DNA of 42,123 nt from Eubacteriales bacterium (GTDB taxonomy: Bacteria; Bacillota; Clostridia; Saccharofermentanales; UBA5734), in contig JAQUEY010000006.1 in assembly GCA_028684955.1 (NCBI GenBank), positions 1-42,123 on the forward strand. Direction: 5' to 3'. Shown here piece by piece: positions 27,363 to 41,794 of this stretch. The notes beneath the pieces are model-generated. The model did no database searches. It had not been told where the DNA came from and worked only from the letters and a program-made list of their open reading frames with translations. Both the position numbers and the translations under genes were made by a program. Position 1 is the stretch's first letter. Every line of letters starts with the position of its first letter.

Positions 27363-27410
27363 GTCAGCTTCGCGGAAGACCTGCCACCCTATCCAAAACC
27401 ATGTGCCATC

Positions 27411-27445
27411 ACGGGGACAGGACCATCCTGTTCCCGTTTTCTTTT
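27411..27445 (+). terminator. Intrinsic terminator after rplQ
   Basis: ACGGGGACAGG (27411-27421) pairs with CCTGTTCCCGT (27427-27437), allowing one G-U pair, around ACCAT. TTTTCTTTT-like residues follow directly. It ends the ribosomal superoperon, but the ecfA ribosome-binding site starts only a few bases later. Confidence 0.85.
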
Positions 27446-27463
27446 GAAGGGGATTATTTGACC

Positions 27464-29275
27464 ATGGACCTGGAAAACCACGCCGGACGTCCGCCATTCG
27501 CCAACATTGATAATGTCAGTTTCTTGTACCAGCAGCATGGCCATGATCCGATCCAGGCGTTGTCACACGTTACGCTGGATTTGAAAAAGGGTAGCCACAC
27601 GGCCATCCTGGGCCGCAATGGGTCGGGGAAGTCTACCCTGGCCCGACTGATCAATGCGCTCGAATTGCCTTCAGAAGGAACCATCATCGTCGCTGGATAT
27701 GATACTCAGGATGACCAGAATATCTGGGAAGTCCGGCGTCAGTGTGGCATGGTGTTCCAGAATCCGGACAATCAGATCGTCGGCACCACCGTCGAGGAAG
27801 ATGTGGCTTTCGGTCCGGAGAACCTGGGATTTCCCCAGCCAGAGATCCGCCTGTCTGTCGACAAAGCGCTGGTCCGGGTCAATATGCTCGCCCTGGCCGA
27901 GCGTCCGCCTCATCTACTATCGGGTGGTCAGAAGCAGAAGCTGGCGATCGCCGGGATTCTGGCCATGCAGCCATCCTGCCTGATCCTTGATGAAGCAACG
28001 TCCATGCTGGATCCAGCGACTCGGACTGATTTTATGGCTCTGGTCGCAGAACTGATCCAGGAACAAGGCTTGACGGTCATCAACATTACCCACCATATGG
28101 AAGAGGCTTTGCTGGCAGACCGTGTGGTGATCATGAACGATGGTCATGTCATTCTGTCTGGTTCTCCATCAGAGGTCTTCGACCGTGTCCAGTTGGTTAA
28201 AAGTCAGGGATTGGATGTGCCTGTCCATGGTGAAATCCTCAACCGGATTGCGGAATTGACGGCGCAAAAACCTCAACCATTTGAAAGCTCTGAATGGGAA
28301 TCAGCCAGGAAAGCCGTGGTCAGGCTGCTCAAATCCGCTGCTCCTGAAAAGCTTCTTTCAGTACTCCGGGAACATCAGCGCCGCCAAGCCTCTGCCCATA
28401 CCTTAGCGTCCTTGGGTGAACCCGTGATCCGGGTCGAAAACCTGTCCTTTACTTATTCTTCTGGTACGACGCTGGAATCCAAAGCCTTGCAGAACGTCAG
28501 TTTTGATGTCCGTAAAGGGGAGTTGCTCGGGATCATAGGCCATAGTGGTTCTGGTAAATCAACGTTGATCCAGCATCTGAATGGCTTGTTGCGCACTCAG
28601 TCGGGCAAGGTAACCGTGCTTGGCCATGACGCATCGGAAAACCAGGCGATCCGGCGTATCCGCCGCCATGTCGGTCTCCTGTTCCAATATCCGGAACACC
28701 AGCTTTTTGAAGAAACCGTCTTCCAGGATATCGCTTTCGGTCCACGCAGGCTTGGTCTCGACGCGGCAGAAGTGGAGAAAAGAGTCCTCTGGGCGGCCCG
28801 GATTGTCGGTTTGACGGATGAGGAACTCGAACGTTCACCCTTTGAATTGTCTGGCGGCCAACGCCGGCGGGCGGCCATCGCGGGCGTGATTGCCATGCGT
28901 CCGGAAGTCCTGATCCTGGATGAACCGGCTGCTGGCCTGGATCCAGCCGGGCGAGAAGAAATCCTCGGCTATGCAGCCCGTCTGCGCGATGAGGGGTCGA
29001 CGGTTATCCTGGTTTCCCACAGCATGGAAGATGTCGCCCGTCTCTCGGACCGTGTCCTCGCGCTCAAGGATGGTGCTGTCCTGTTGTTTGGCACTCCAGC
29101 GGAAGTTTTTGCCCAGACGGAGACACTCGTTGCGGCAGACCTGTCTGTGCCCCGGACGGCTGTTTTTCTGCGTGACATGAAAGCAGATTTCCCGGACATA
29201 TCAGACCAGTTCTACACGGTGGAATCTGCAGCATTTGAATTAATCCGGGCAGCGGTGGGGAGGTGTGAATCATGA
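27464..29275 (+). CDS. ecfA: ECF transporter ATPase, fused EcfA1-EcfA2
   Basis: This protein supplies both ATPase subunits of an energy-coupling-factor transporter for vitamins. The 603 residues hold two full ABC domains. Domain 1 has Walker A GRNGSGKST (50-58), LSGGQKQK (152-159) and Walker B CLILDEATSMLD (172-183). Domain 2 has Walker A GHSGSGKST (359-367), LSGGQRRR (462-469) and VLILDEPAAGLDP (482-494). FQNPDNQIVGTTVEEDVAFGPENLG and FQYPEHQLFEETVFQDIAFGPRRLG are the ECF-specific Q-loop regions. A linker of about 60 residues joins them. Start ATG at 27464 follows AGGGG by 11 nt. In most Firmicutes ecfA1 and ecfA2 are separate neighbours here. Its TGA overlaps ecfT in ATGA. A single unbroken frame makes an assembly fusion unlikely. 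Confidence 0.95.
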   Translation: MDLENHAGRPPFANIDNVSFLYQQHGHDPIQALSHVTLDLKKGSHTAILGRNGSGKSTLARLINALELPSEGTIIVAGYDTQDDQNIWEVRRQCGMVFQNPDNQIVGTTVEEDVAFGPENLGFPQPEIRLSVDKALVRVNMLALAERPPHLLSGGQKQKLAIAGILAMQPSCLILDEATSMLDPATRTDFMALVAELIQEQGLTVINITHHMEEALLADRVVIMNDGHVILSGSPSEVFDRVQLVKSQGLDVPVHGEILNRIAELTAQKPQPFESSEWESARKAVVRLLKSAAPEKLLSVLREHQRRQASAHTLASLGEPVIRVENLSFTYSSGTTLESKALQNVSFDVRKGELLGIIGHSGSGKSTLIQHLNGLLRTQSGKVTVLGHDASENQAIRRIRRHVGLLFQYPEHQLFEETVFQDIAFGPRRLGLDAAEVEKRVLWAARIVGLTDEELERSPFELSGGQRRRAAIAGVIAMRPEVLILDEPAAGLDPAGREEILGYAARLRDEGSTVILVSHSMEDVARLSDRVLALKDGAVLLFGTPAEVFAQTETLVAADLSVPRTAVFLRDMKADFPDISDQFYTVESAAFELIRAAVGRCES

Positions 29276-30078
29276 TCAGCAACATCTCACTGGGCCGTTA
29301 TTACCCTGCTAAATCCATTCTGCATCGCCTGGATCCGCGGACCAAGATCCTGTCTGCCTTCCTGATGATGGCAGTGATCTTCTTGTCCCGGGACTTGCTG
29401 TCCATGGGTTTACTGGGTCTTGTAACCTTGGCTTTGATTGGGTTGTCGCGGGTACCGGTCAAGCAAGTCCTGGTCAGTCTGAGACCGATGCTTTTCATCC
29501 TCCTGTTTGCGGTTGTGCTCAACATCCTGACCATCAGCGGTGATCCGCTGCTTAAGATCGGGCCGGTCATCATCAGCGAACAAGGGTTGATCACCGCGTT
29601 GCGCATGGGATCGCGCCTGATCTTGCTGATTCTTAACACCACCTTGCTTCTGACACTGACCACGACCCCGATCCATGTTTCTGATGCATTGGAAAACTTG
29701 CTCGGACCTTTCCGGAAAATAGGTTTCCCTGCTCATGAAATGGCCATGATGATGTCGATTGCCTTGCGGTTTGTCCCAACCTTGCTCGAAGAAACCGACA
29801 AGATCATGAAAGCACAATCGTCGCGCGGAGCTGATTACGACACAGGTGGTCTCATCGCCCGGGCCCGCGGCCTGGTTTCTGTCCTGATCCCGCTTTTCGT
29901 CAGTGCTTTCAAACGAGCCGAAGACTTGGCCGTGGCAATGGAGGCTCGCTGTTACCGGGGCGGTGAATCCAGAACTCGCCTGCGTGTGATGAAATACCAA
30001 ACCCGGGATGCCCTTTTCGGAATCGGAATCGGCCTATCTTCGCTGACTATCCTGAGTGTGCGCTTCTGGCCCCTCTGA
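29272..30078 (+). CDS. ecfT: ECF transporter transmembrane subunit EcfT
   Basis: EcfT couples the ATPases to exchangeable substrate-binding S components in the membrane. The 268-residue product begins SNISLGRYYPAKSILHRLDPRTKIL, has several membrane spans in the first ~130 residues, and carries the two Ala-Arg-Gly-like coupling motifs SSRGAD (~183) and EARCYRGG (~224). No S component is encoded nearby, so this is presumably a group II module shared by several S proteins. The start overlaps ecfA by 4 nt. Confidence 0.95.
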   Translation: MISNISLGRYYPAKSILHRLDPRTKILSAFLMMAVIFLSRDLLSMGLLGLVTLALIGLSRVPVKQVLVSLRPMLFILLFAVVLNILTISGDPLLKIGPVIISEQGLITALRMGSRLILLILNTTLLLTLTTTPIHVSDALENLLGPFRKIGFPAHEMAMMMSIALRFVPTLLEETDKIMKAQSSRGADYDTGGLIARARGLVSVLIPLFVSAFKRAEDLAVAMEARCYRGGESRTRLRVMKYQTRDALFGIGIGLSSLTILSVRFWPL

Positions 30079-30090
30079 ACTTGGGATGAT

Positions 30091-30107
30091 CCCGGACAGT
30101 TTCCGGG
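30091..30107 (+). terminator. Small GC hairpin after ecfT
   Basis: CCCGGA (30091-30096) and TCCGGG (30102-30107) form a 6-bp stem with a 5-nt loop shortly after the ecfT stop. It has no U-tract, so it is at best a weak terminator. Confidence 0.35.
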
Positions 30108-30108
30108 C

Positions 30109-30137
30109 TGGTGATGCAACCGGTTGCCAGTTATAAT
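30109..30137 (+). promoter_or_regulatory. Promoter candidate for the ROK kinase gene
   Basis: A perfect TATAAT (30132-30137) follows TGGTGA (30109-30114) with 17 bp between. The -35 is poor. Initiation would be near 30144, about 33 nt before the ATG. Confidence 0.5.
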
Positions 30138-30176
30138 AAAGGTCACAGAATTGCCAGAATATTTGGAGGATGCGCC

Positions 30177-31160
30177 ATGAAACATTATATTGGCATTGAC
30201 TTGGGTGGGACCAATATCAAGGTCGGGCTGGTGGACGAGGCTGGCACGATGATCCATAAAAAGAGCATCAAAACCCAGGCAGAACGTTCAGGTGAGGCGA
30301 TTGTTGCCGACATGGCCCGCGTGACTCTGGAAGTCATCGCCGAAGCAGGCTACAAGGAAAGTGATGTCGAATCAATCGGCATCGGTTCTCCGGGTACACC
30401 AAACAACAAGACGGGCGAACTCATTGTGGCCTACAATCTGCCATTCCGGCACATGCCGATGCGCCGTGAAATGAAAAAAGTCGTCACCCTGCCAGTTTAC
30501 ATTGATAATGATGCCAATGTTGCTGCATTGGCAGAGAGCGAATTTGGTGCCGCACGCGGCAGCTCCTCGAGCGTGACCATCACCCTCGGCACCGGTGTGG
30601 GGGGTGGCATTGTCATCAACAACCGTATTTTCAGCGGCTTTAACAATGCTGGTTCCGAGATCGGCCATATGGTCATCAAAAGTGGTGGCGAAGCCTGCAC
30701 GTGTGGTCGCAAAGGCTGCTTCGAAGCGTATGCTTCTGCCACCGCCCTGATCCGTGACACCGAACGGGCAGCAGCAGAAAATCCCAGTTCGATCCTCAAT
30801 GCCATGATCGCTGACAATGGTGGCAAGGCCAGCGGTCGCTCGGCTTTTGATGCCATGCGCCAAGGTGATGCGGTTGCCGCATCCGTGGTGGACAACTACA
30901 TTGATATGCTCTCCGAAGGTTTGGCCAATGTGATCAATACTTTCATGCCGGAAATCATCGTCATTGGAGGCGGTGTCTGCAATGAAGGCGACGCCCTGAT
31001 GGTTCCCTTGCTGGAAAAAACTTTTGCCAAAGCCAAATCTTTCCTGGCAGAAGGAGTCCCAGCTCCCAAGATTCGCATTGCAGAAATGGGCAATGATGCC
31101 GGCATCGTCGGTGCAGCCATGATGGGACGCCGCTGCCTCGAAGATGGACTGCCAGGCTGA
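30177..31160 (+). CDS. glk: ROK-family sugar kinase, probable glucokinase
   Basis: A cytoplasmic kinase phosphorylating glucose or a related hexose with ATP. The 327-residue product has the ATP-binding IGIDLGGTNIKVGLVDE at the start, the catalytic region YIDNDANVAALAESEFGAARG, TLGTGVGGGIVINN, EIGHM and the ROK zinc motif CTCGRKGCFE. No N-terminal DNA-binding domain is present, so it is an enzyme rather than a NagC-type repressor. The ATG at 30177 follows TTGGAGGAT. It stands 5 nt before truA, in the place where ecfT is normally followed directly by truA. Glucose is inferred; another hexose is possible. Confidence 0.88.
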   Translation: MKHYIGIDLGGTNIKVGLVDEAGTMIHKKSIKTQAERSGEAIVADMARVTLEVIAEAGYKESDVESIGIGSPGTPNNKTGELIVAYNLPFRHMPMRREMKKVVTLPVYIDNDANVAALAESEFGAARGSSSSVTITLGTGVGGGIVINNRIFSGFNNAGSEIGHMVIKSGGEACTCGRKGCFEAYASATALIRDTERAAAENPSSILNAMIADNGGKASGRSAFDAMRQGDAVAASVVDNYIDMLSEGLANVINTFMPEIIVIGGGVCNEGDALMVPLLEKTFAKAKSFLAEGVPAPKIRIAEMGNDAGIVGAAMMGRRCLEDGLPG

Positions 31161-31165
31161 AAAAC

Positions 31166-31951
31166 ATGCCGGACTGCCGCCGCATCGCCCTGCTTCTGGA
31201 ATATGACGGCTTTGACTTCCACGGTTTCCAGGACCAGGGTGACTTGAGAACCGTCCAGCAGGTTGTCCAGGATGCCCTGCGCGACTTGAGCGGTGAGAGC
31301 GACCTCCAGATTGTCAGCAGCAGCCGGACTGACCAGGGGGTGCACGCCCGCGGTCTGGTCTGCCACCTGGATACGACCCTGGCTGTTCCGCTGGATCGTC
31401 TGCCGCTGGCCCTGAACAACCGTCTGCCCGACGATGTCGCCTTGCTTGCCGCCACAGAGGTTCCACCCGGTTTCCATGCCCGCTATGATGCTGTCGGCAA
31501 GATCTACACGTACCGCTATTATCTATCGCCGACCCGGCCGGTCCTTTCCCGCCATCTGGCACCCCATGTCTTTGGACCGGTTGATCAGGACCGTATGCGC
31601 GAGGCCTTGCCGTACTTGTGTGGCACCCATGACTTCTACGCATTCATGGACCAGAACAACAACCCTAAACACACGACCATCCGCACCATCCACCAACTGG
31701 ACCTGGCATTCGATCCACCTTTCCTGACTTTGCAGGTGCGCGGCAATGGCTTCCTCTATCACATGGTCAGGATCCTGGCGGGCACTGTCCTGGCTGTCGG
31801 CCAGGGCAAGATCGAGCCGCAGGCCATCCCGCAGATTCTTAGCTCGCGCGACCGCAAGCTGGCCGGAAAGACCATGCCGCCCCAGGGCTTATGCCTGGAG
31901 TCCGTCCTGTACCCATTCCCCTTGTTTAAGCCAATGGAGGCCCCGTTATGA
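31166..31951 (+). CDS. truA: tRNA pseudouridine(38-40) synthase TruA
   Basis: TruA converts uridines 38-40 of the tRNA anticodon stem to pseudouridine. The 261-residue product has the catalytic aspartate D56 in SSSRTDQGVHARG, the N-terminal ALLLEYDGFDFHGFQ and NGFLYHMVRILAGTVLAVGQGK near the C-terminus. No clear ribosome-binding site is seen in the 5 nt after the ROK kinase gene, so coupling is likely. Its stop overlaps pncB in ATGA. Confidence 0.96.
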   Translation: MPDCRRIALLLEYDGFDFHGFQDQGDLRTVQQVVQDALRDLSGESDLQIVSSSRTDQGVHARGLVCHLDTTLAVPLDRLPLALNNRLPDDVALLAATEVPPGFHARYDAVGKIYTYRYYLSPTRPVLSRHLAPHVFGPVDQDRMREALPYLCGTHDFYAFMDQNNNPKHTTIRTIHQLDLAFDPPFLTLQVRGNGFLYHMVRILAGTVLAVGQGKIEPQAIPQILSSRDRKLAGKTMPPQGLCLESVLYPFPLFKPMEAPL

Positions 31952-33411
31952 CAAAGATTCGCTGGACCGACCGGACCAACATGACCCTGCTGACTGATTT
32001 CTATGAACTGACCATGTCCAAAGGCTACCTCGACAATGACATGTCCGAAACCGTGGCGTATTTCGATTTGTTCTTCCGTCAAGTTCCCCAGGACGGCGGG
32101 TTCGCGATCATGGCCGGTGTGGAACAGATGATCGAATATTTGAGGGACCTGACATTTACAGAGGAAGATCTCGCTTATCTGGGCAGCCACGAGGTGTTCG
32201 ATGACCGGTTCATCGAATTCCTGCGCCAGTTCAAATTCACCTGTGATGTCTGGGCCATCCCGGAGGGAACGCCGATCTTCCCCAATGAGCCGATTGTCAA
32301 GGTGCGCGGTCCGATCATCCAAGCCCAGATGATTGAAACGATGCTCCTGGTTACCATCAATCACCAGAGTCTGATCGCCACCAAGACCGCCCGGATCGTA
32401 CGCGCCGCCAAAGGCCGCCCCGTGCTCGAGTTTGGCTCGCGCCGGGCCCAAGGCTATGATGCAGCCGTCCTCGGGGCCAGGGCTGCCTACATCGCTGGCG
32501 CTGCCGGTACTTCCTGCACTCTGTGTGGCGAGCATTTCAATATTCCCGTGCTCGGGACCATGGCTCACAGCTGGATCCAGGCTTTCCCGGACGAATTCGC
32601 GGCTTTTGCCGCTTATGCCCGCTCGTTTCCCTCCGACACGGTTCTGCTGGTCGATACCTATAACACCCTGCATTCAGGAATCCCCAATGCCATCCGGACA
32701 GCCCGAGAAGTGCTCGAACCGATGGGATACCGTTTACGCGGGATCCGGATTGACAGCGGTGACCTGGCGTATTTGACCGTCAAGGCTCGTGAAATGCTGG
32801 ACCAGGCTGGTCTTTCGGACTGCAAGATCACCATCAGCAATGCACTGGACGAGTACATCATTCGTGACCTGATCGTGCAAGGCGCAGCAGTCGATTCGTT
32901 TGGCGTCGGCGAACGCCTGATCACCTCCAGGGCTGAACCAGTCTTTGGCGGCGTCTACAAACTGGCCGCCATCGAGGACCAGGGGCAGGTCATCCCACGG
33001 ATGAAATTCTCGGAAAATGCCACCAAAATCACCAATCCAGGCAATAAATCTGTCTGGCGCTTCTATGACAAAAGCAGTGGCAAAGCCATTGCCGATGTCA
33101 TCGGACTGGCCGAGGAAACCATCACCGAAGATCACCCTTATGAGATTTTCGATCCACTCCATACTTGGAAACGCAAGACCCTGACCAACTTCACCGTCCG
33201 CTCCCTGCTGGAACCCGTTTTCGTTGCGGGTGAACTGGTCTATCCGCACCGTTCCATTGAAGAGATCCGCAAAGACTGTGCCCATGAGCTGGACCGGCTC
33301 TGGGAATCCCTCAAACGGTTCGAAAATCCACAGAGCTACTATGTTGACCTGACCTTGGCCCTTTGGGAAACCCGCAATCACCTGCTCATCCAGGCGGAGA
33401 ATCCCTCCTGA
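31948..33411 (+). CDS. pncB: Nicotinate phosphoribosyltransferase
   Basis: PncB makes nicotinate mononucleotide from nicotinate and PRPP, the entry to NAD salvage. The 487-residue product has MTLLTDFYELTMSKGYLDN at the start, EFGSRRAQGYDAAV, GTMAHSWIQAFPDE with the conserved histidine H207 (phosphorylated in characterised enzymes), and GIRIDSGDLAYL. Its length matches the longer Firmicutes-type enzymes. AATGGAGGCCCC precedes the ATG, which overlaps truA by 4 nt. Confidence 0.96.
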   Translation: MTKIRWTDRTNMTLLTDFYELTMSKGYLDNDMSETVAYFDLFFRQVPQDGGFAIMAGVEQMIEYLRDLTFTEEDLAYLGSHEVFDDRFIEFLRQFKFTCDVWAIPEGTPIFPNEPIVKVRGPIIQAQMIETMLLVTINHQSLIATKTARIVRAAKGRPVLEFGSRRAQGYDAAVLGARAAYIAGAAGTSCTLCGEHFNIPVLGTMAHSWIQAFPDEFAAFAAYARSFPSDTVLLVDTYNTLHSGIPNAIRTAREVLEPMGYRLRGIRIDSGDLAYLTVKAREMLDQAGLSDCKITISNALDEYIIRDLIVQGAAVDSFGVGERLITSRAEPVFGGVYKLAAIEDQGQVIPRMKFSENATKITNPGNKSVWRFYDKSSGKAIADVIGLAEETITEDHPYEIFDPLHTWKRKTLTNFTVRSLLEPVFVAGELVYPHRSIEEIRKDCAHELDRLWESLKRFENPQSYYVDLTLALWETRNHLLIQAENPS

Positions 33412-33476
33412 CAGATTCGTGTCCCAGTCGACTGCCCTGTGGTAAAATGAAAAAAACACATTGAAAGGACATGCCA

Positions 33477-33968
33477 ATGGCTATCTACGCGAACATAACG
33501 ATGGAGTCCGGCAAGAAAATCCGGCTCAAGCTCGACCCCGACAATGCCCCCCAGACTGTCAAAAACTTCACGGACCTTGCAGAAGCTGGTTTCTATAATG
33601 GTTTGATTTTCCACCGGGTCATCAGCGGGTTCATGATCCAGGGTGGTTGCCCCCAAGGCACAGGCACAGGTGGTCCCGGCTACCAGATCAAAGGCGAGTT
33701 CTCCAGCAATGGCGTCACAAACCAGCTCCGCCACACCCGCGGCGTCATTTCGATGGCCCGGTCCATGCATCCTGATTCAGCAGGGTCACAGTTTTTCATC
33801 ATGCATGCAGCAGCGCCCCATCTCGATGGCCAATATGCCGCTTTCGGCCAGGTTGTCGATGGGATCGAGGTTGTTGATGAGATTGCAGCAGTCAAGACAG
33901 ACCGTGGAGATCGTCCACAAATTGAACAGAAAATGGCTGCAATAGAGATCGAACGGGACGATACGTGA
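33477..33968 (+). CDS. ppiB: Peptidyl-prolyl cis-trans isomerase, cyclophilin type
   Basis: A cytoplasmic cyclophilin that catalyses proline isomerisation during folding. The 163-residue product contains FHRVISGFMIQGGCPQGTGTGGPGYQIKGEF, GVISMARSMHPDSAGSQFFIM and LDGQYAAFGQVVDG, including the active-site arginine of FHRV and the QFFI block. The second ATG (33477) is chosen because AAAGGA ends 7 nt before it, whereas only 1 nt separates it from the ATG at 33471. A TAAAAT at 33443-33448 might be a -10, without a clear -35. Confidence 0.95.
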   Translation: MAIYANITMESGKKIRLKLDPDNAPQTVKNFTDLAEAGFYNGLIFHRVISGFMIQGGCPQGTGTGGPGYQIKGEFSSNGVTNQLRHTRGVISMARSMHPDSAGSQFFIMHAAAPHLDGQYAAFGQVVDGIEVVDEIAAVKTDRGDRPQIEQKMAAIEIERDDT

Positions 33969-34405: not shown

Positions 34406-34437
34406 GACCGTCTCCCGCGAGGGGGACGGTCTTTTTG
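34406..34437 (+). terminator. Intrinsic terminator after the zinc-ribbon gene
   Basis: GACCGTCTCCC (34406-34416) pairs with GGGGGACGGTC (34421-34431) through 11 pairs including one G-U, with a GCGA tetraloop and TTTTTG after it. Confidence 0.92.
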
Positions 34438-34456
34438 TATCCAATTTTCTGAATGT

Positions 34457-34480
34457 CATTTGACCATAATATGTCAAATG
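34457..34480. promoter_or_regulatory. Perfect 24-bp inverted repeat upstream of the sugar-binding protein gene
   Basis: CATTTGAC (34457-34464) and GTCAAATG (34473-34480) flank 8 A/T-rich bases about 70 bp before the gene. TTGACC (34460-34465) within it could be a -35, with weak A/T-rich -10 options near 34484. Size and symmetry suit an operator for a dimeric regulator. The downstream AraC-type response regulator or the IS630-type HTH protein are candidates to bind it; neither is shown. Confidence 0.55.
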
Positions 34481-34549
34481 GAATATTCGATAAAATTTGT
34501 GGAATTTCGTGTAAAGACAAAAAGCAGACAAGCTTGCTAAGCTTACGAC

Positions 34550-35488
34550 ATGAGTACAAAAGCACACATCAAATCCATCCTGCTGGTCATCTTGCTCACC
34601 TTGGTGCCGACACTGGCATTAACAGGTTGCTCGGAGAAAGGCCAGCCGCGCTATGCTCTCTGCATGAGCCATCTGACCAATCACTTCACAAACACCCTGG
34701 CCTCGGCGGCACGCGCCCGGGCCAACGAACTGGATGTGGAACTGATCGTGATGGATGCCCAGCAAGACACGGCTCGCCAGGCTGGACAGATCGAAACCTT
34801 GCTCCAGGATGGCATCGACGGTCTAATGATCGAACCTGCAGCTGCAGCTGGACTGGAGTCTGTCCTCAGGCAGGCGATGGCCAGCGGGCTGCCAGTTGTT
34901 CTCGTCACCCAGCGGGTGGACGATCCAACGCTTTACGACTGCTATGTCGGGACGGATGCCCGTGTAAGCGGCCAGCTCGAATTGTCGGCCTGCCTCGAGG
35001 CCATCGAGTATCAGGGGGATCTGGCTGTCTTGCGCGGACCTGTCGGATCCCAGGCAGCCGATGCACGTTATCAGGGTTACCGCACAGAGCTTATTGGCCA
35101 GCCAAATGTCCGGATTGTTGCCGAGCTCAATGCCGACTGGAATGCAGACCGGGCAGAAACCATAGTCTCCAACTGGCTCCTGGCTGGCAAACAGATGGAT
35201 GCCATCGTCGCCCAGAATGACGAGATGGCGATCGGTGCAATCAAAGCCCTGCGCACGGCCGGCCTGACTGGTTCTGTCCAGGTATTTGGTATTGATGCAT
35301 CGGACCAGGCGCTGCAGGCCATCCGGCAGGGCGAAATGACTGCTACGATTTCCCAGCAGACAGCCCTCCAGGGCAGTATGGCCATGGACATCTGCATCGC
35401 CCTCTCGCGTGAAGAGTCATTTCCGGACGAGGTTCTGGTCCAGCAAATTGTCATCAACCAACAAAACATCGAGACGAACTGGAACTAA
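34550..35488 (+). CDS. Lipoprotein sugar-binding protein (RbsB-like), probable sensor subunit
   Basis: A 312-residue periplasmic-binding-protein-like lipoprotein. Residues 8-26 form a lipoprotein signal ending in the lipobox LTGC (C27), so it is tethered outside the membrane. The mature part resembles type I sugar-binding proteins (RbsB/XylF): ARANELDVELIVMDAQQDTARQAGQIETLLQDGIDGLMIEPAA, then GLPVVLVTQRVDD, DAIVAQNDEMAIGAIKAL and VFGIDASDQALQAI. No ABC permease lies nearby. Instead a histidine kinase and response regulator follow, as with XylFII-LytS-YesN in Clostridium. No Shine-Dalgarno sequence is visible before the ATG; AAGCTT repeats occupy that place. The ligand is unknown. Confidence 0.88.
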   Translation: MSTKAHIKSILLVILLTLVPTLALTGCSEKGQPRYALCMSHLTNHFTNTLASAARARANELDVELIVMDAQQDTARQAGQIETLLQDGIDGLMIEPAAAAGLESVLRQAMASGLPVVLVTQRVDDPTLYDCYVGTDARVSGQLELSACLEAIEYQGDLAVLRGPVGSQAADARYQGYRTELIGQPNVRIVAELNADWNADRAETIVSNWLLAGKQMDAIVAQNDEMAIGAIKALRTAGLTGSVQVFGIDASDQALQAIRQGEMTATISQQTALQGSMAMDICIALSREESFPDEVLVQQIVINQQNIETNWN

Positions 35489-35502
35489 AGGAGGAGTTTG
35501 CC

Positions 35503-35970
35503 ATGCCTATCATCAAATACCGTGTGAACCTTTCGCCTGCCGAACGAGCCAGACTGGAAGCCATGCTGATTCATGGACGACTCGACCGCAGAGCCAGCAT
35601 GCATGTCCGCGTCCTGCTTCTGGCAGATGAGCATCGTCCCGGCAAGAAACTGAGTGAACAGGCCATTGCGCAGGAAATTGGAATCAACTCCCAGACGGTC
35701 CACACCATTCGGCGCCGTTATTCATTGCTGGGCCTGGAGGCAGCCATCAATCGTAAACCGAGGTCCAGAACAACCACTGGCATGAGAATTACACCGGATG
35801 TCCGCACCCGGATCATCGCTCTCAGCCAGACGGTTCCACCTGCCGGCAAAAACCGCTGGACTTTGCGTCTCCTGGCCCACCATGCCATCGCCCAGCATAT
35901 AGTCGACCGCATTTCCCACGAGACTGTCGGACAAGTCTTAAAAAGTTCCGGACAACAAGGTATAATCTGA
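35503..35970 (+). CDS. Stand-alone IS630-type transposase HTH domain protein
   Basis: The 155-residue product matches the N-terminal DNA-binding half of IS630-family transposases: LSEQAIAQEIGINSQTVHTIRRRYSLLGLEAAINRKPRSR is the first helix-turn-helix, and NRWTLRLLAHHAIAQHIVDRISHETVGQVLK is the second winged region. The catalytic DDE domain that should follow is missing; the frame stops nine residues later and the kinase promoter begins inside it. AAAGGAGGAG gives a strong ribosome-binding site, and the frame has no internal defect. It could be a decayed orfA or a domesticated regulator of the surrounding sensory genes. It lies 14 nt after the binding-protein gene. Confidence 0.8.
   Translation: MPIIKYRVNLSPAERARLEAMLIHGRLDRRASMHVRVLLLADEHRPGKKLSEQAIAQEIGINSQTVHTIRRRYSLLGLEAAINRKPRSRTTTGMRITPDVRTRIIALSQTVPPAGKNRWTLRLLAHHAIAQHIVDRISHETVGQVLKSSGQQGII
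35938..35966 (+). promoter_or_regulatory. Histidine kinase promoter
   Basis: TTAAAA (35938-35943), 17 bp and a perfect TATAAT (35961-35966) lie over the 3' end of the HTH gene. Initiation would be near 35973, about 26 nt before the kinase ATG, so the kinase and regulator can be made independently of the binding protein. Confidence 0.7.
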
Positions 35971-35998
35971 TCATCCTGTCTCTGAAAGGCATAACGGC

Positions 35999-37753
35999 AT
36001 GCGCAACAGCATCAAGAACCGATTGCTGAAAACCTTCGCCTTGATGGTTGTTTTGCCTGTTCTTGCGCTTTTCATCCTGTTGAACTTCATTTACTGGATC
36101 ACCTCTTACTGGACCATTGTCGACCAGGCGGGGTCCGTCCTTGATGAAGCAGAAAATGCCGTCACGACCAAGTTCGACCGCTATGAGGCCTTGCTTTCCT
36201 TTCTGGAAAAAGATCTGGACTTGATCGCAGCCGGCGATTTCCATTCCAGCCAGTTGATTCCCCAGGCCGACTTGAAAAACCTCCAGATCCTGATTGGTGG
36301 TTATGCGTCTTCGATTGACAGCATCAGCCATTTGACCGTCCTGTATCAGAATGAGCTGTTCCTGTGCACACACACTCATCCCCAGCCGCCGGATCGGACA
36401 CTCCTGGCTGACTGGTATGAGGCCTCACTGGACCAACCGGAACAAACGCACTATTTCATCTACAATGCGGGGGAAAACCCACTTTTGGCAGGTGAACCGC
36501 ACTACGCCAGCAGCCTGTCAGTCAGCAGGGCCATCTGTGACCCGGATGGCAAACCCGTGGCAGTGGCCAACCTGACCATCCAGGGAGAGGATCTTGGCAA
36601 CCTGTTAACAGCCGCTTACGGTCAGCAGGGCGGCCAGACCTACCTGGTCACTCCAGGTGGTACGCTGGTCAATTCGCCGTTGCGCTATGATGAACTGGCT
36701 GGCACCGACAACCGCAACTACCTGAAATCTGAACGCAATTTGACAGATATCCCCTTGACCATCGTCAATTTCATGCCATTGCGGCCCTTTTTCACCCAGC
36801 AATACCTGACCCTCTCTCTGGGCGTCCTGAGTAGCCTGGTTTTCATGTTGTTCTTTGTGGCCCACTCCCGTTATACGATCCAGCAATTTGTCAAGCCGAT
36901 CGAGGATCTGCGCCGGTTGATGTCTGAAGCCCAGCATGGCAATCTGCTGGTTTCCTACCAGCCAGACACGCAGGATGAGTTCGAGGATCTGGCAGAGAGC
37001 TTCAACCAGATGGTTGCTGAGCTCAGGCGCCTGATCGACCAGGTCTATATCGAACAGTCCAGCAAACGCAAGGCAGAGGTCAAAGCCCTGCTGGCTTCGA
37101 TCAAGCCCCATTTCCTGTACAATACCCTGGAAACCATCCATTGGATGGCACGACGCTATGGTGCCAATGATATTGTCGAAGCTGTGGATGCTTTGTCAGA
37201 CCTGTTCCGGGTTGGATTTTCCGCCAATCACGAACTGGGCACAGTGGAAACAGAAGTTTCGCACGTCGAAAGTTACCTCAAAATCCAGAAATTACGCTAC
37301 CGGGATATACTCGATTACCAGCTGGAGATCGACCCGGAGGTGCGCCATTTGCCGGTCATGCAGACCATTTTGCAGCCGATTGTAGAGAATGCCTTGTACC
37401 ATGGCATCAAGGAAAGTGGCAATCCCGGCCAGATCGTGATCCGTGCCAGAATGGAAGCGGATCTCCTGCTGATTGTTATTCGCGACAACGGCCGCGGCAT
37501 AGCCAAAGAAAAGCTCGAACAGCTTATGCAGAGCCTCACCGAGAAAAGCGACCTGGACCCAGCACGCGGGCATGGCCTGAGCAACGTCCAGCAGCGTTTG
37601 ACCATGAGCTATGGCGGTCGCTACGGCATGACCATTGCGAGCGAACCAAACCAGGGCACCGAGGTGACCCTGCGTCTGCCTGTTTTGCCTGCCAGAGATG
37701 ATCCGTCCAGCCAGCGATTCAACCCGGGAGGAGACAACACCGATGCCCTATAA
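35999..37753 (+). CDS. YesM/LytS-type membrane sensor histidine kinase
   Basis: A 584-residue sensor kinase. One membrane span is at ~15-42 (LMVVLPVLALFILLNFIYWI), an extracellular sensory domain of ~230 residues follows, and a second span is at ~270-292 (YLTLSLGVLSSLVFMLFFV). A HAMP segment precedes a His_kinase-type domain with the phosphorylated histidine H371 in IKPHFLYNTLETIHWM. The ATPase domain has the N box IVENALYHGIKE, G box VIRDNGRGIAKEKL and GHGLSNVQQRL. The extracellular part (with ADWYEASLDQPEQTHYF) resembles Cache-type sensors but could equally dock the neighbouring sugar-binding lipoprotein. GAAAGG lies 11 nt before the ATG. The 3' end overlaps the regulator gene by 11 nt. Confidence 0.95.
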   Translation: MRNSIKNRLLKTFALMVVLPVLALFILLNFIYWITSYWTIVDQAGSVLDEAENAVTTKFDRYEALLSFLEKDLDLIAAGDFHSSQLIPQADLKNLQILIGGYASSIDSISHLTVLYQNELFLCTHTHPQPPDRTLLADWYEASLDQPEQTHYFIYNAGENPLLAGEPHYASSLSVSRAICDPDGKPVAVANLTIQGEDLGNLLTAAYGQQGGQTYLVTPGGTLVNSPLRYDELAGTDNRNYLKSERNLTDIPLTIVNFMPLRPFFTQQYLTLSLGVLSSLVFMLFFVAHSRYTIQQFVKPIEDLRRLMSEAQHGNLLVSYQPDTQDEFEDLAESFNQMVAELRRLIDQVYIEQSSKRKAEVKALLASIKPHFLYNTLETIHWMARRYGANDIVEAVDALSDLFRVGFSANHELGTVETEVSHVESYLKIQKLRYRDILDYQLEIDPEVRHLPVMQTILQPIVENALYHGIKESGNPGQIVIRARMEADLLLIVIRDNGRGIAKEKLEQLMQSLTEKSDLDPARGHGLSNVQQRLTMSYGGRYGMTIASEPNQGTEVTLRLPVLPARDDPSSQRFNPGGDNTDAL

Positions 37754-38951
37754 AGTCCTGATAGCCGATGATGAACGGGTGATCCGGGAAGGCATGGCCA
37801 CGCTGATCGACTGGAGCCAGTATGGCTTTGCAGTCTGCGGCCTGGCCGCCAATGGCCTGGAAGCCCTGGACATGATTTCCAAAACCATGCCTGACCTGAT
37901 GTTGGTTGACATTCAGATGCCCCAGCTTTCTGGTCTGCTCCTGATCGAAAAAGCCAAGGTGATTGCCCCGGATTTGGAATTCATCATCGTTACCGGACAT
38001 GATGAGTTTGACTTTGCCAGGCAAGCGATCAACCTAGGTGTGCGTGACTACCTGCTTAAGCCCGTCAAAGAGCATCGCCTGCTCGAATCAGTGGAGCGAA
38101 TCCGCAAGGAAATGGATCGCCAGCGGCGCAGCAAGGAACAATACGATTTTGCAATAACCCAGCTCCATAAAAACATGACTGTGCTCAGGGAACAGTTTCT
38201 CCAGCAGCTGATCCAGGGAAAGCTTGTCCAGGAAGAAATCGACGAAATGCTCGGATTTCACAAGTTGCAGAACGGGTATGACCATTTTTGCCTGTTGCGC
38301 CAGAGCCGCCAGAGCAGGCTGGGGAGTAATGGTGAATGGGACCGTCAGCTGCTGCGATTTGCGATCCAGAACATTTTCGAGGAGAAATTGGCGGAGTGTG
38401 GGCCTTTTGTCTGCACCGCAGATAGCCAGTACAATTTGTTTGCCCTCGTTAAAGTGGAGAATCCAGGGGTCTGGCAGCAATTGCCCCGGGCTGTGGCAGA
38501 GGCGATGCGCCAGACGCTCGACTTGGACATCAAGTTGGACCAGGACCGTTTCGGACGGGACTGGACGCTGATCCCGGTTCGCTATGACAACTGGACCCAT
38601 GAACAAGTCCGCCCTGTCAATCCGCTGACAGAGCGGGCTGTCACCTACATAGCCGACCACTACAGCGACCCCGATCTGTCTTTTCGCCGGATCTGCGAAG
38701 CTCTATTTGTCAGCTCGAGTTATTTGAGCAAAATTTTCAAGCAGGACACCAACGAAACGTTTGTCGATTACCTGGCCAAGTACCGGATCCAGAAATCACT
38801 CCAGCTCCTGGCCAAACCGGAGATCCGGATGTATGAGATCGCCAGCCAGGTTGGCTACAAATCCCAGCAATACTTCTCAGCTGCTTTCAAGAAAATCCTG
38901 GGTGTATCCCCTTCAGAGTACCGCACCCGCGAATTTGGCACGGGTAATTGA
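37743..38951 (+). CDS. YesN-type response regulator with AraC DNA-binding domain
   Basis: The cytoplasmic partner of the kinase. In 402 residues it has a receiver domain (1-120) with acidic D9 and D10, phosphoacceptor D56 in LVDIQMP and K109-region LLKPVKE. A variable middle part (~130-290) follows. The C-terminal AraC/XylS domain (~300-397) has two helix-turn-helix motifs, LSFRRICEALFVSSSYLSKIFKQ and MYEIASQVGYKSQQYFSAAFKKILGVSPSEYR. The ATG at 37743 follows GGGAGGAG by 9 nt; a frame extension to 37698 lies inside the kinase gene and is not conserved. Related pairs control sugar ABC transporter genes; no such genes lie in this window. No terminator is visible before the convergent hydE. Confidence 0.96.
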   Translation: MPYKVLIADDERVIREGMATLIDWSQYGFAVCGLAANGLEALDMISKTMPDLMLVDIQMPQLSGLLLIEKAKVIAPDLEFIIVTGHDEFDFARQAINLGVRDYLLKPVKEHRLLESVERIRKEMDRQRRSKEQYDFAITQLHKNMTVLREQFLQQLIQGKLVQEEIDEMLGFHKLQNGYDHFCLLRQSRQSRLGSNGEWDRQLLRFAIQNIFEEKLAECGPFVCTADSQYNLFALVKVENPGVWQQLPRAVAEAMRQTLDLDIKLDQDRFGRDWTLIPVRYDNWTHEQVRPVNPLTERAVTYIADHYSDPDLSFRRICEALFVSSSYLSKIFKQDTNETFVDYLAKYRIQKSLQLLAKPEIRMYEIASQVGYKSQQYFSAAFKKILGVSPSEYRTREFGTGN

Positions 38952-38979: not shown

Positions 38980-40113
38980 TTACGGATTGTAAGTCAGGTG
39001 ATCGCCGCGCGAGAGGTCAATGTCAAAACCGACGCTGCGAATCCGGCTTTCGATGCAGATGCGGCATTCGGCCGCTTCATCCCCCGTGCAGATTTTCCCG
39101 TCATAGAGACTGTAATCCTTGCGGTTGACTGTTGGCGTCAGATTGGGCATGACAACATTGGCGCCGGCTTTGAGGCCTTTTTCCCGCCCCTTGTGATCGA
39201 GTGAGCCGAGTGCGGTGGTGGCTGGAATCAAGGCTGCGGGCAGGGTCAGGCGCGTGAGGGCAACCATGATCAGGGTGTCCTCGACACTACCAGCCGGTTC
39301 ATTGGCAAAAGGGGTGTTGCTGGCTGGCATGAAGGGCCCGATGCCGACCATGTGTGGCTGGAGTTCGCGCAGGAAAATCAGATCGTTGGCCAGGTGTTCG
39401 GCAGTCTGACCGGGTGGTCCGACCATGAACCCGGCACCGGTCTGGTAGCCTATGTCCATGAGATCAAACAAACAGCGCTTGCGGTTCAGAAGGTCGAGTT
39501 CGGCTGGGTGGAGCAGGGCGTAATGCTCAGGTGTCGCACTTTCATGGCGCAACAGGTAACGGTTGGCCCCGGCATCAAAGAATCGCTGGTAGCTGACCCT
39601 GTCTTTTTCACCGAGGGACAGCGTGATCGCACAGTCGGGATAACGGTTATGGATATCCTGGATGATTGCGACCATGCGGTCGTCTGTGAAATAGGGGTCT
39701 TCACCACTCTGAAGGACAAACGTCCGGTAGCCAAGCTCATAACCGGTCTGGCAGCTCGCGAGAATCTCATCCTGGCTCAGGCGATAGCGGTTGACGGTAC
39801 CATTCCCCGCCCGGATGCCACAATAGTAGCAATCGTTGGCGCAAAAATTGGAAAATTCGATCAGCCCGCGGAAAAAGACACGGCGGCCATAGATCCGGTC
39901 ACGCAGGTCAGATGCTGTCTGGCAGAGGTTTTCACGCAGCTTTGCGTCAGCCCGGGCTGTTTCGATGATTTGAACCAGCTCAGAAGCGTCGAGAGCGATG
40001 CCAGAGGCCAGCTTCGCAAGCCTGCGCAGGAATTCCGGTGCAGACAGGATCAATGTTGAAAGGGCGGTTGTTTCAGGACTGGTTACCAAGAGATGGGTCG
40101 CTGGCAGGCTCAT
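38980..40113 (-). CDS. hydE: [FeFe]-hydrogenase maturase HydE
   Basis: HydE is a radical-SAM enzyme needed to build the H-cluster 2Fe subcluster, acting after HydG on its iron-CO-CN-cysteine product. The 377-residue sequence has the cluster motif CANDCYYCGI (C91, C95, C98), YRLSQDEILASCQTGYELGYRTFVLQSGED and MVGIGPFMPASNTPF, all typical of HydE. It differs from the related BioB and PylB by these blocks and by its gene context. The first ~25 residues are not conserved in memory, but the ATG overlaps the hydG stop (ATGA), which supports this start. Cysteines in ICTGDEAAECRICIE near the end could ligate an extra cluster. Confidence 0.94.
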   Translation of the reverse strand: MSLPATHLLVTSPETTALSTLILSAPEFLRRLAKLASGIALDASELVQIIETARADAKLRENLCQTASDLRDRIYGRRVFFRGLIEFSNFCANDCYYCGIRAGNGTVNRYRLSQDEILASCQTGYELGYRTFVLQSGEDPYFTDDRMVAIIQDIHNRYPDCAITLSLGEKDRVSYQRFFDAGANRYLLRHESATPEHYALLHPAELDLLNRKRCLFDLMDIGYQTGAGFMVGPPGQTAEHLANDLIFLRELQPHMVGIGPFMPASNTPFANEPAGSVEDTLIMVALTRLTLPAALIPATTALGSLDHKGREKGLKAGANVVMPNLTPTVNRKDYSLYDGKICTGDEAAECRICIESRIRSVGFDIDLSRGDHLTYNP

Positions 40114-41525
40114 AAATATTTGTCCCGTTCTCCCACTTTGATTTTGGCGATGTTCTTTTTCGTCAATTCCTGGATATCCGGGCGAGTGATTCGTTCCATT
40201 TCCTTGTCAATCAGGTTAAAACCTTTATCGCGGAGATCATCATCACCGTAGTCAAGCAAGTATTCAGCCAGCGTAGCCAGGGCATTGGGCTGGCAGACGT
40301 TTTTGATCTGGCCGCTCTTGGCCAGCTGCATGAAACGGTCGCCTGTCCGGCTCATCCGGTAGCAGGCGGTGCAATAGCTGGGAATCAGGCCTTCACTGAT
40401 CATCCAGCCGATGATTTCGCCGGCGCTGCGTTCGTCGCTGAGCGCAAACTGGATGGCTGCTGATTTCTTCTTGATTTTGTTGACTGCATAGCCACCCACC
40501 CCGACGGCCGATTCAGCGCTCATCTGGGTGATGCCGCAGTCGATCAGATCCTTGCGCATGTTGGCGGACTCGCGCGTAGAAATGATAATGCCAGTGTAAG
40601 GGACGGCAATGCGGATGATCGCCACGAGTTTTCTAAACAGTTCATCATCGATGGCATAGGGGTAAGGCTGGTTTTCGGTGCCCTTGGCTGGGCGGATGCG
40701 TGGCACGGAAATGGTGTGGAAACCGACTTTCCAGGTTTTTTCCAGGTGTTCATTGTGCAGCATCAGTGCCAGCGTCTCGAAAAGCGGATCGCCCAGGCCG
40801 AACAGCACGCCGCCGCCGACATCGTCGATGCCGCCCTGCTGGGCGCGGTCAAACGCCGTGGTATGCCAGGCATAATCGCTCTTGGGTCCCGACGGGTGGT
40901 AATAGGCATACACCTCAGGATCGTAGGATTCCTGGAACAAGATGTAGGTGCCAATATTGGCTGCCTTGAGTTTTTCGTAATTTTCAACCGAAGTGGCGGC
41001 GATGTTGACATTGATACGGCGGATTTCGCCATTATCCACCTTGGAGTCATAAACGGTTTTGATGCAGTCGAGGATGTAGTTGATATCACACTTTTCGTCA
41101 TCTTCACCAGCTTCAAGAGCGATGCGCTTATGCCCGAGCCGGATGATGGCCTCAGCCTCGGTGCGGACCTCCTCCTGGGACAACTGGCGGCGATTGAAAT
41201 CATTGCCGCACTGGTAACCACAATAGCGGCATTCATTGACACAATGGTCGCTGACATACAGCGGTGCGAAAATGACGATGCGCTGGCCGTAGATGGTTTC
41301 CTTGATTTTGCGGGCAATGTGGAACAGCCGTTCCTCGTGTTCAGGCTTGGTCATTTTCAGCAGAACAGCTACCTCATGATGGGTCAGGCCGGCAAAAGAC
41401 GCTGCCTTCTCAAAGATGCGATTGATTTCCTGCTCACTGGCTGTCTTTGCATCTTGCAAGGTCTTTCGGATGTAATCGGGATCGATGAAGCTGACGGACT
41501 GCAATTTGGTTTCCTCGACTGGCAT
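40110..41525 (-). CDS. hydG: [FeFe]-hydrogenase maturase HydG (tyrosine lyase)
   Basis: HydG splits tyrosine into p-cresol, CO and cyanide and delivers an iron-CO-CN unit for the H-cluster. The 471-residue product has the radical-SAM motif CVNECRYCGY (C95, C99, C102) and the C-terminal cluster motif CTACYRMSRTGDRFM (C385, C388) with C411, a CX2CX22C spacing specific to HydG versus ThiH. ESYDPEVYAYYHPSGPKSDY is also diagnostic. The start at 41525 follows AGAGGAG. It lies 17 nt after the TM1266-type gene and overlaps hydE, so the three form one operon. Confidence 0.97.
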   Translation of the reverse strand: MPVEETKLQSVSFIDPDYIRKTLQDAKTASEQEINRIFEKAASFAGLTHHEVAVLLKMTKPEHEERLFHIARKIKETIYGQRIVIFAPLYVSDHCVNECRYCGYQCGNDFNRRQLSQEEVRTEAEAIIRLGHKRIALEAGEDDEKCDINYILDCIKTVYDSKVDNGEIRRINVNIAATSVENYEKLKAANIGTYILFQESYDPEVYAYYHPSGPKSDYAWHTTAFDRAQQGGIDDVGGGVLFGLGDPLFETLALMLHNEHLEKTWKVGFHTISVPRIRPAKGTENQPYPYAIDDELFRKLVAIIRIAVPYTGIIISTRESANMRKDLIDCGITQMSAESAVGVGGYAVNKIKKKSAAIQFALSDERSAGEIIGWMISEGLIPSYCTACYRMSRTGDRFMQLAKSGQIKNVCQPNALATLAEYLLDYGDDDLRDKGFNLIDKEMERITRPDIQELTKKNIAKIKVGERDKYL

Positions 41526-41542
41526 GGTTCTCCTCTTTCAAA

Positions 41543-41794
41543 TCAAACGGATTTACGGGAAATGGCAGCTTTGACCTGAACGCCGGGGATCGACCCCAAT
41601 TTGCCCGTCAGGCTGTTGATACGGTCAACTGGACCCACAAGGGTCAGGCTGATCACGGCCATCTGATGTTCATCAAACGGGATCCCCATCCGCCCACGAA
41701 CGATGTCGTGGTAAGCGGAGACCACATCATTGAACAGATGCTGGCTGGACCCTGGATTTTCCAAAATGGCACTGATCACGGCGATGCGATTCAC
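41543..41794 (-). CDS. TM1266-family iron-only hydrogenase system putative regulator
   Basis: An 83-residue ACT/NikR-like small protein: NRIAVISAILENPGSSQHLFNDVVSAYHDIVRGRMGIPFDEHQMAVISLTLVGP, split over two conserved blocks, then LTGKLGSIPGVQVKAAIS. Members of this family are found next to hydrogenase maturation genes and are presumed to be regulatory; no mechanism is established. It starts with GTG at 41794, seven nucleotides after AGGAGG. It is the first gene of the leftward unit with hydG and hydE and follows a leader with competing hairpins. Confidence 0.9.
   Translation of the reverse strand: MNRIAVISAILENPGSSQHLFNDVVSAYHDIVRGRMGIPFDEHQMAVISLTLVGPVDRINSLTGKLGSIPGVQVKAAISRKSV

Follow-up and report, generated by a model that had tools for sequence, protein, structure and literature searches.

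The stretch of DNA analysed here (the window, 42,123 nucleotides) holds four genes in a row, coding for a lipoprotein sugar-binding protein (SBP), an HTH protein, a YesM-type sensor histidine kinase and a YesN-type response regulator (Table 1), and on balance we favour reading them as a three-component system for sensing alone, into which a fourth member, the HTH protein, has been co-opted. The gaps between the genes are short (14 bp from SBP to HTH, 28 bp from HTH to kinase) and the kinase and regulator genes overlap; a single, tight operon is therefore likely, and no transporter adjoins it. Profile searches confirmed all four reading frames of the row given in a preliminary description (a lipobox-bearing SBP, an HTH protein, a two-span kinase and an AraC-type regulator), the domain assignments being firm for the SBP, the kinase core and the regulator and good for the HTH protein. 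Two starts required correction: the SBP gene begins at 34550 rather than 34457, and the regulator most likely starts not at 37698 but at the ATG at 37743, which overlaps the kinase stop. The hydrogenase maturation genes named as neighbours are indeed present, with HydE, HydG and a TM1266-like protein encoded at 38980-41794, convergent with the module. On its other side, a 58-aa treble-clef protein (PF13451, 34204-34436) is encoded between a cyclophilin gene and the SBP operon, with a terminator-like hairpin 3' of its gene at about 34408-34440.

Table 1. Features of the four-gene module and its upstream region (window coordinates)
Feature	Position	Strand	Basis or remark
Candidate operator, two 21-bp units TGGAATATTCGATAAAATTTG / TGGAATTTCGTGTAAAGACAA, common core TGGAA-N8-AAA	34479..34520	+	conserved in five species
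Possible promoter: AAGACA 34514-34519, 18-nt spacer, TAAGCT 34538-34543	34514..34543	+	read from sequence
SBP (lipoprotein sugar-binding protein, RbsB-like, Peripla_BP_4)	34550..35488	+	312 aa; profile matches
HTH protein, IS630 OrfA-type DNA-binding region without DDE domain	35503..35970	+	155 aa; profile matches
A5 tract, where three related IS630 elements have A7	35940..35944	+	sequence comparison
YesM-type sensor histidine kinase	35999..37753	+	584 aa; two membrane spans, Cache-like extracellular region, HAMP
YesN-type response regulator (receiver and AraC-type HTH)	37743..38951	+	402 aa; profile matches

The SBP, HTH and kinase genes occupy the same position, in the same order, in each of the five genus genomes available (the window, G017:C8, G018:C42, G019:C384 and G020:C33), each a draft in many contigs, and the regulator gene is present in four of them, the G019 contig ending inside the kinase gene. 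The co-occurrence of lipoprotein and kinase on which the preliminary description leaned is thus found in 5/5 genomes, and its four-gene order in every genome whose contig reaches the regulator (4/4). The SBP gene adjoins, and is inherited together with, the kinase and regulator genes, as in a three-component system. The upstream neighbours (27401-33968) and the downstream HydE, HydG and TM1266-like genes are largely common to the genus as well, where the contigs reach. We considered whether HydE is broken in G020 and rejected this, as the gene is intact at 81% identity. Among the 23 genomes of the family, only the five of the genus gave orthologue-level matches to SBP, HTH protein and kinase; the one additional HTH match, in G001, belongs to an IS630 element, and the one additional SBP match is to the binding protein of a transporter. 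In the 188 genomes of the order the kinase has no match at E<=1e-70 outside the genus, and HTH matches outside the genus, sought in these genomes and in 391 sampled genomes of the class, are few in number and reach at most 43% identity, the search thresholds being strict enough that distant versions of the module may have been missed.

The SBP matches Peripla_BP_4 (E=5e-54) and carries a lipobox, LTGC, at residues 24-27. Across the genus the lipobox is kept, and the invariant residues include N44/F46, R173, N223-D224, D249 and Q269-Q270, which we take to belong to the regions lining an RbsB-type pocket. The ligand is probably a sugar or a sugar-like compound, sensed outside the cell without import. 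No ABC permease or ATPase of the RbsA/RbsC type lies beside the module in the window genome or its four relatives, as far as the contigs reach, in keeping with the permease-free arrangement first described; neither of the two conditions named in advance as refuting that description (sugar permease genes beside the lipoprotein gene in close relatives, or kinase and lipoprotein failing to co-occur) was observed. We think it unlikely that the SBP instead serves, as substrate-binding subunit, a CUT2 transporter whose genes lie elsewhere and are controlled by the two-component system, with sensing by the SBP secondary. Such a role would suit its closest relatives outside the genus (27-35% identity), which mostly adjoin RbsA/RbsC genes, and the window genome has about ten RbsC-like permease genes, two of which, on C15 and C251, lie at contig ends with unreadable flanks and leave room for an orphan permease. 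However, each CUT2 permease whose flanks can be read has an SBP of its own nearby (C147, C129, C210, C121, C18, C157, C117 and C182, the last with an SBP_bac_1 protein), and the SBP of the module stands away from permeases in five species.

Elsewhere in the window genome, an SBP and a YesM-type kinase are paired beside transport genes on C129, C95 and C182. The order on C129 is regulator-kinase-SBP-RbsA-RbsC, while C95 (L047:3973-10919, G000) encodes a membrane-anchored Peripla_BP_4 protein, a YesM-type kinase, a YesN-type regulator, a second SBP and, directly adjoining, a PTS EIIC/EIIB gene, so that this sensor group is associated with a PTS and not with an ABC transporter. The groups on C129 and C95 make the three-component arrangement an ordinary one in this organism; what distinguishes the module from the other copies is its separation from transporters and its HTH gene.

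In the kinase, HAMP is followed by His_kinase (PF06580, E=1.5e-22) and HATPase_c, the architecture of the YesM/LytS group, and an extracellular region of about 230 aa is flanked by a hydrophobic span on each side (near residues 13-31 and 270-288). The regulator combines Response_reg (E=3e-26) with a C-terminal AraC-type HTH (HTH_18, E=3e-22), as YesN-type regulators do, and catalytic motifs are retained in both proteins. A profile of the kinase ectodomain found no relative among solved chains, LytS included, the two matches at E of about 1 being spurious, and the AlphaFold model of this N-terminal part has a pLDDT of 40.

The sensing part of the module is of a known kind. XylFII-LytS-YesN is reportedly a D-xylose three-component system of Clostridium beijerinckii in which an SBP co-sensor, a LytS/YesM-type kinase and a YesN-type regulator are clustered, and the module shares this set of clustered genes. 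The preliminary description called the module related to but distinct from that system, and the relation holds for the way of working, but not as close kinship: against solved structures the SBP matches 2ioy (E=2e-55) and dozens of others, many of them transport SBPs, ahead of XylFII (5xsd, E=2.5e-20), and the kinase ectodomain, as noted, could not be matched to that of LytS. The module differs further in its extra HTH gene and in adjoining no transporter cluster. CuaDSR, the cellobiose three-component system of Ruminiclostridium cellulolyticum, includes CuaD, an acylated 410-aa cellobiose binder that binds the kinase ectodomain and improves detection at low ligand concentrations, and controls cuaABC-cbpA (PMC10384115). 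Compared by description only, it resembles the module in that the gene for an acylated SBP adjoins those for a sensor and an AraC-type regulator, and differs in the ligand-binding protein, in its targets and in having no HTH gene among the components described (PMC10384115). By analogy, the module appears to be a variant of SBP-dependent three-component systems with a putative SBP-kinase contact; its new element is the HTH gene.

The same comparison bears on a further reading, in which the kinase would sense the ligand alone through its Cache-like region and the SBP would serve as an accessory scavenger or ligand buffer. CuaSR still responds to cellobiose when CuaD is missing (PMC10384115), and residues 112-232 of the kinase give a dCache_1 match that remains below threshold (29.8 bits against a cut-off of 45). 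We regard this reading, too, as improbable, given that the SBP gene heads the operon and is inherited together with the kinase gene in every genome of the genus.

The HTH protein had been described as IS630-derived, and its origin can now be narrowed to an OrfA without the DDE part by profiles, by comparison with the element in L012 and by the junction between the two frames. It matches HTH_32 (E=8e-15) and aligns to positions 4-109 of the 299 of an IS630 transposase model, that is, to its N-terminal third; its relatives outside the genus, where annotated by function, are IS630 transposases. The nearest one in the family is the OrfA of an IS630 element in G001 (L012:941-1935, G001:C50; 43% identity), with which the HTH protein shares the HTH_32/HTH_29 region and the length up to the frameshift point, its own length being that of an unshifted OrfA product. 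In this element OrfA and the DDE ORF lie in different frames joined at an A7 tract, as they do in L044 and L045: the OrfA product stops a few residues past VLKK, and the DDE_3 ORF continues in the other frame. By contrast, the junction point reads A5 in the window, L013, L015 and L016 (L014, which reads LKT there, was left out of the count), the HTH gene of the operon ends nine residues past VLK, and the 28 bp between its stop and the kinase start hold no DDE_3 remnant in any frame. A PDB sequence search with the HTH protein gave no match, and a Foldseek search with its model (usable for about residues 4-84) gave no significant one.

Unlike the IS630 elements, the HTH gene is fixed in a host operon and occurs once per genome (at E<=1e-8). 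It is open and of equal length in five species, is better conserved than the adjoining SBP gene, and has pairwise dN/dS values of 0.10-0.21, at dS up to about 2, in a range like that of SBP and kinase; AGGAGG immediately precedes its ATG. These features are strong evidence that the gene is kept, coding, non-transposing and under purifying selection, and they make it very improbable that it is a neutral transposon remnant sitting in the operon by chance and without function, even though its recognisable relatives are IS630 transposases. Judged by sequence, the protein has the look of a transposase DNA-binding domain that was domesticated and became fixed in a three-component system. We infer that it regulates the sensor operon, and put forward, tentatively, that the OrfA domain was domesticated as a fourth component of extracellular sugar sensing, one that would either assist or oppose the YesN-type regulator at their common operon; its retention could also have nothing to do with the kinase. 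From eukaryotes, transcription factors derived from transposases are well known. Our literature search returned such eukaryotic cases and, in the titles and abstracts covered, no IS630-derived bacterial regulator. If our proposal is right, a mobile element supplied a signalling operon with a new regulatory layer, and the HTH protein offers a compact, genus-wide candidate for DNA-binding and deletion experiments.

The region 5' of the SBP gene (34472-34520) is strongly conserved in the genus, the divergent G020 included. Here TGGAA-N8-AAA occurs twice at a spacing of 21 bp, ending on a -35-like box. The self-match at offset 21 is 11/16, a value reached in 6/300 shuffles, so the repeat by itself is modest evidence and its conservation is the stronger. 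Direct repeats two helical turns apart beside the -35 box are a usual feature of the sites of AraC-type activators, and this makes the YesN-type regulator the favoured binder, with autoregulation as one output. The direct repeat is a plausible operator, and its position suggests that the operon is autoregulated. Downstream, the TAAGCT box is conserved in 5/5 species and ends 6 nt before the SBP ATG, with no clear ribosome-binding site between box and start (34538-34549); the mRNA of the operon may therefore be leaderless.

Taken as a pathway, the SBP, anchored outside the membrane, would bind a sugar or sugar-like ligand and offer it to the kinase at the extracellular region of the latter. The kinase would then phosphorylate the regulator, which would bind at the -35 region, to the direct repeat, and raise expression of the operon, and the HTH protein, its catalytic half lost, would most likely serve as a DNA-binding modulator of the operon or its regulon. 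The module represents a natural SBP-kinase-regulator set with no transporter attached, and lends itself to the question of what is controlled by systems of this sort that do not control an importer of their own.

The regulon was sought by pattern scans. A 28-bp operator pattern (<=3 mismatches) was found once per genus genome, always upstream of the SBP operon. Near flgB, on G000:C150 and G018:C57, another operator-like site (3 mismatches) was weighed as a flagellar target and rejected as a chance match, because it lies directly 5' of a c-di-GMP-I riboswitch aptamer, overlaps a TTGACA/TATAAT-like promoter region, is oriented the other way round and is not conserved in G017, the nearest relative. 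The riboswitch itself, 5' of flgB, scores 68 bits in each of the two genomes (L061:192-275 in G000:C150 and L060:639-722 in G018:C57).
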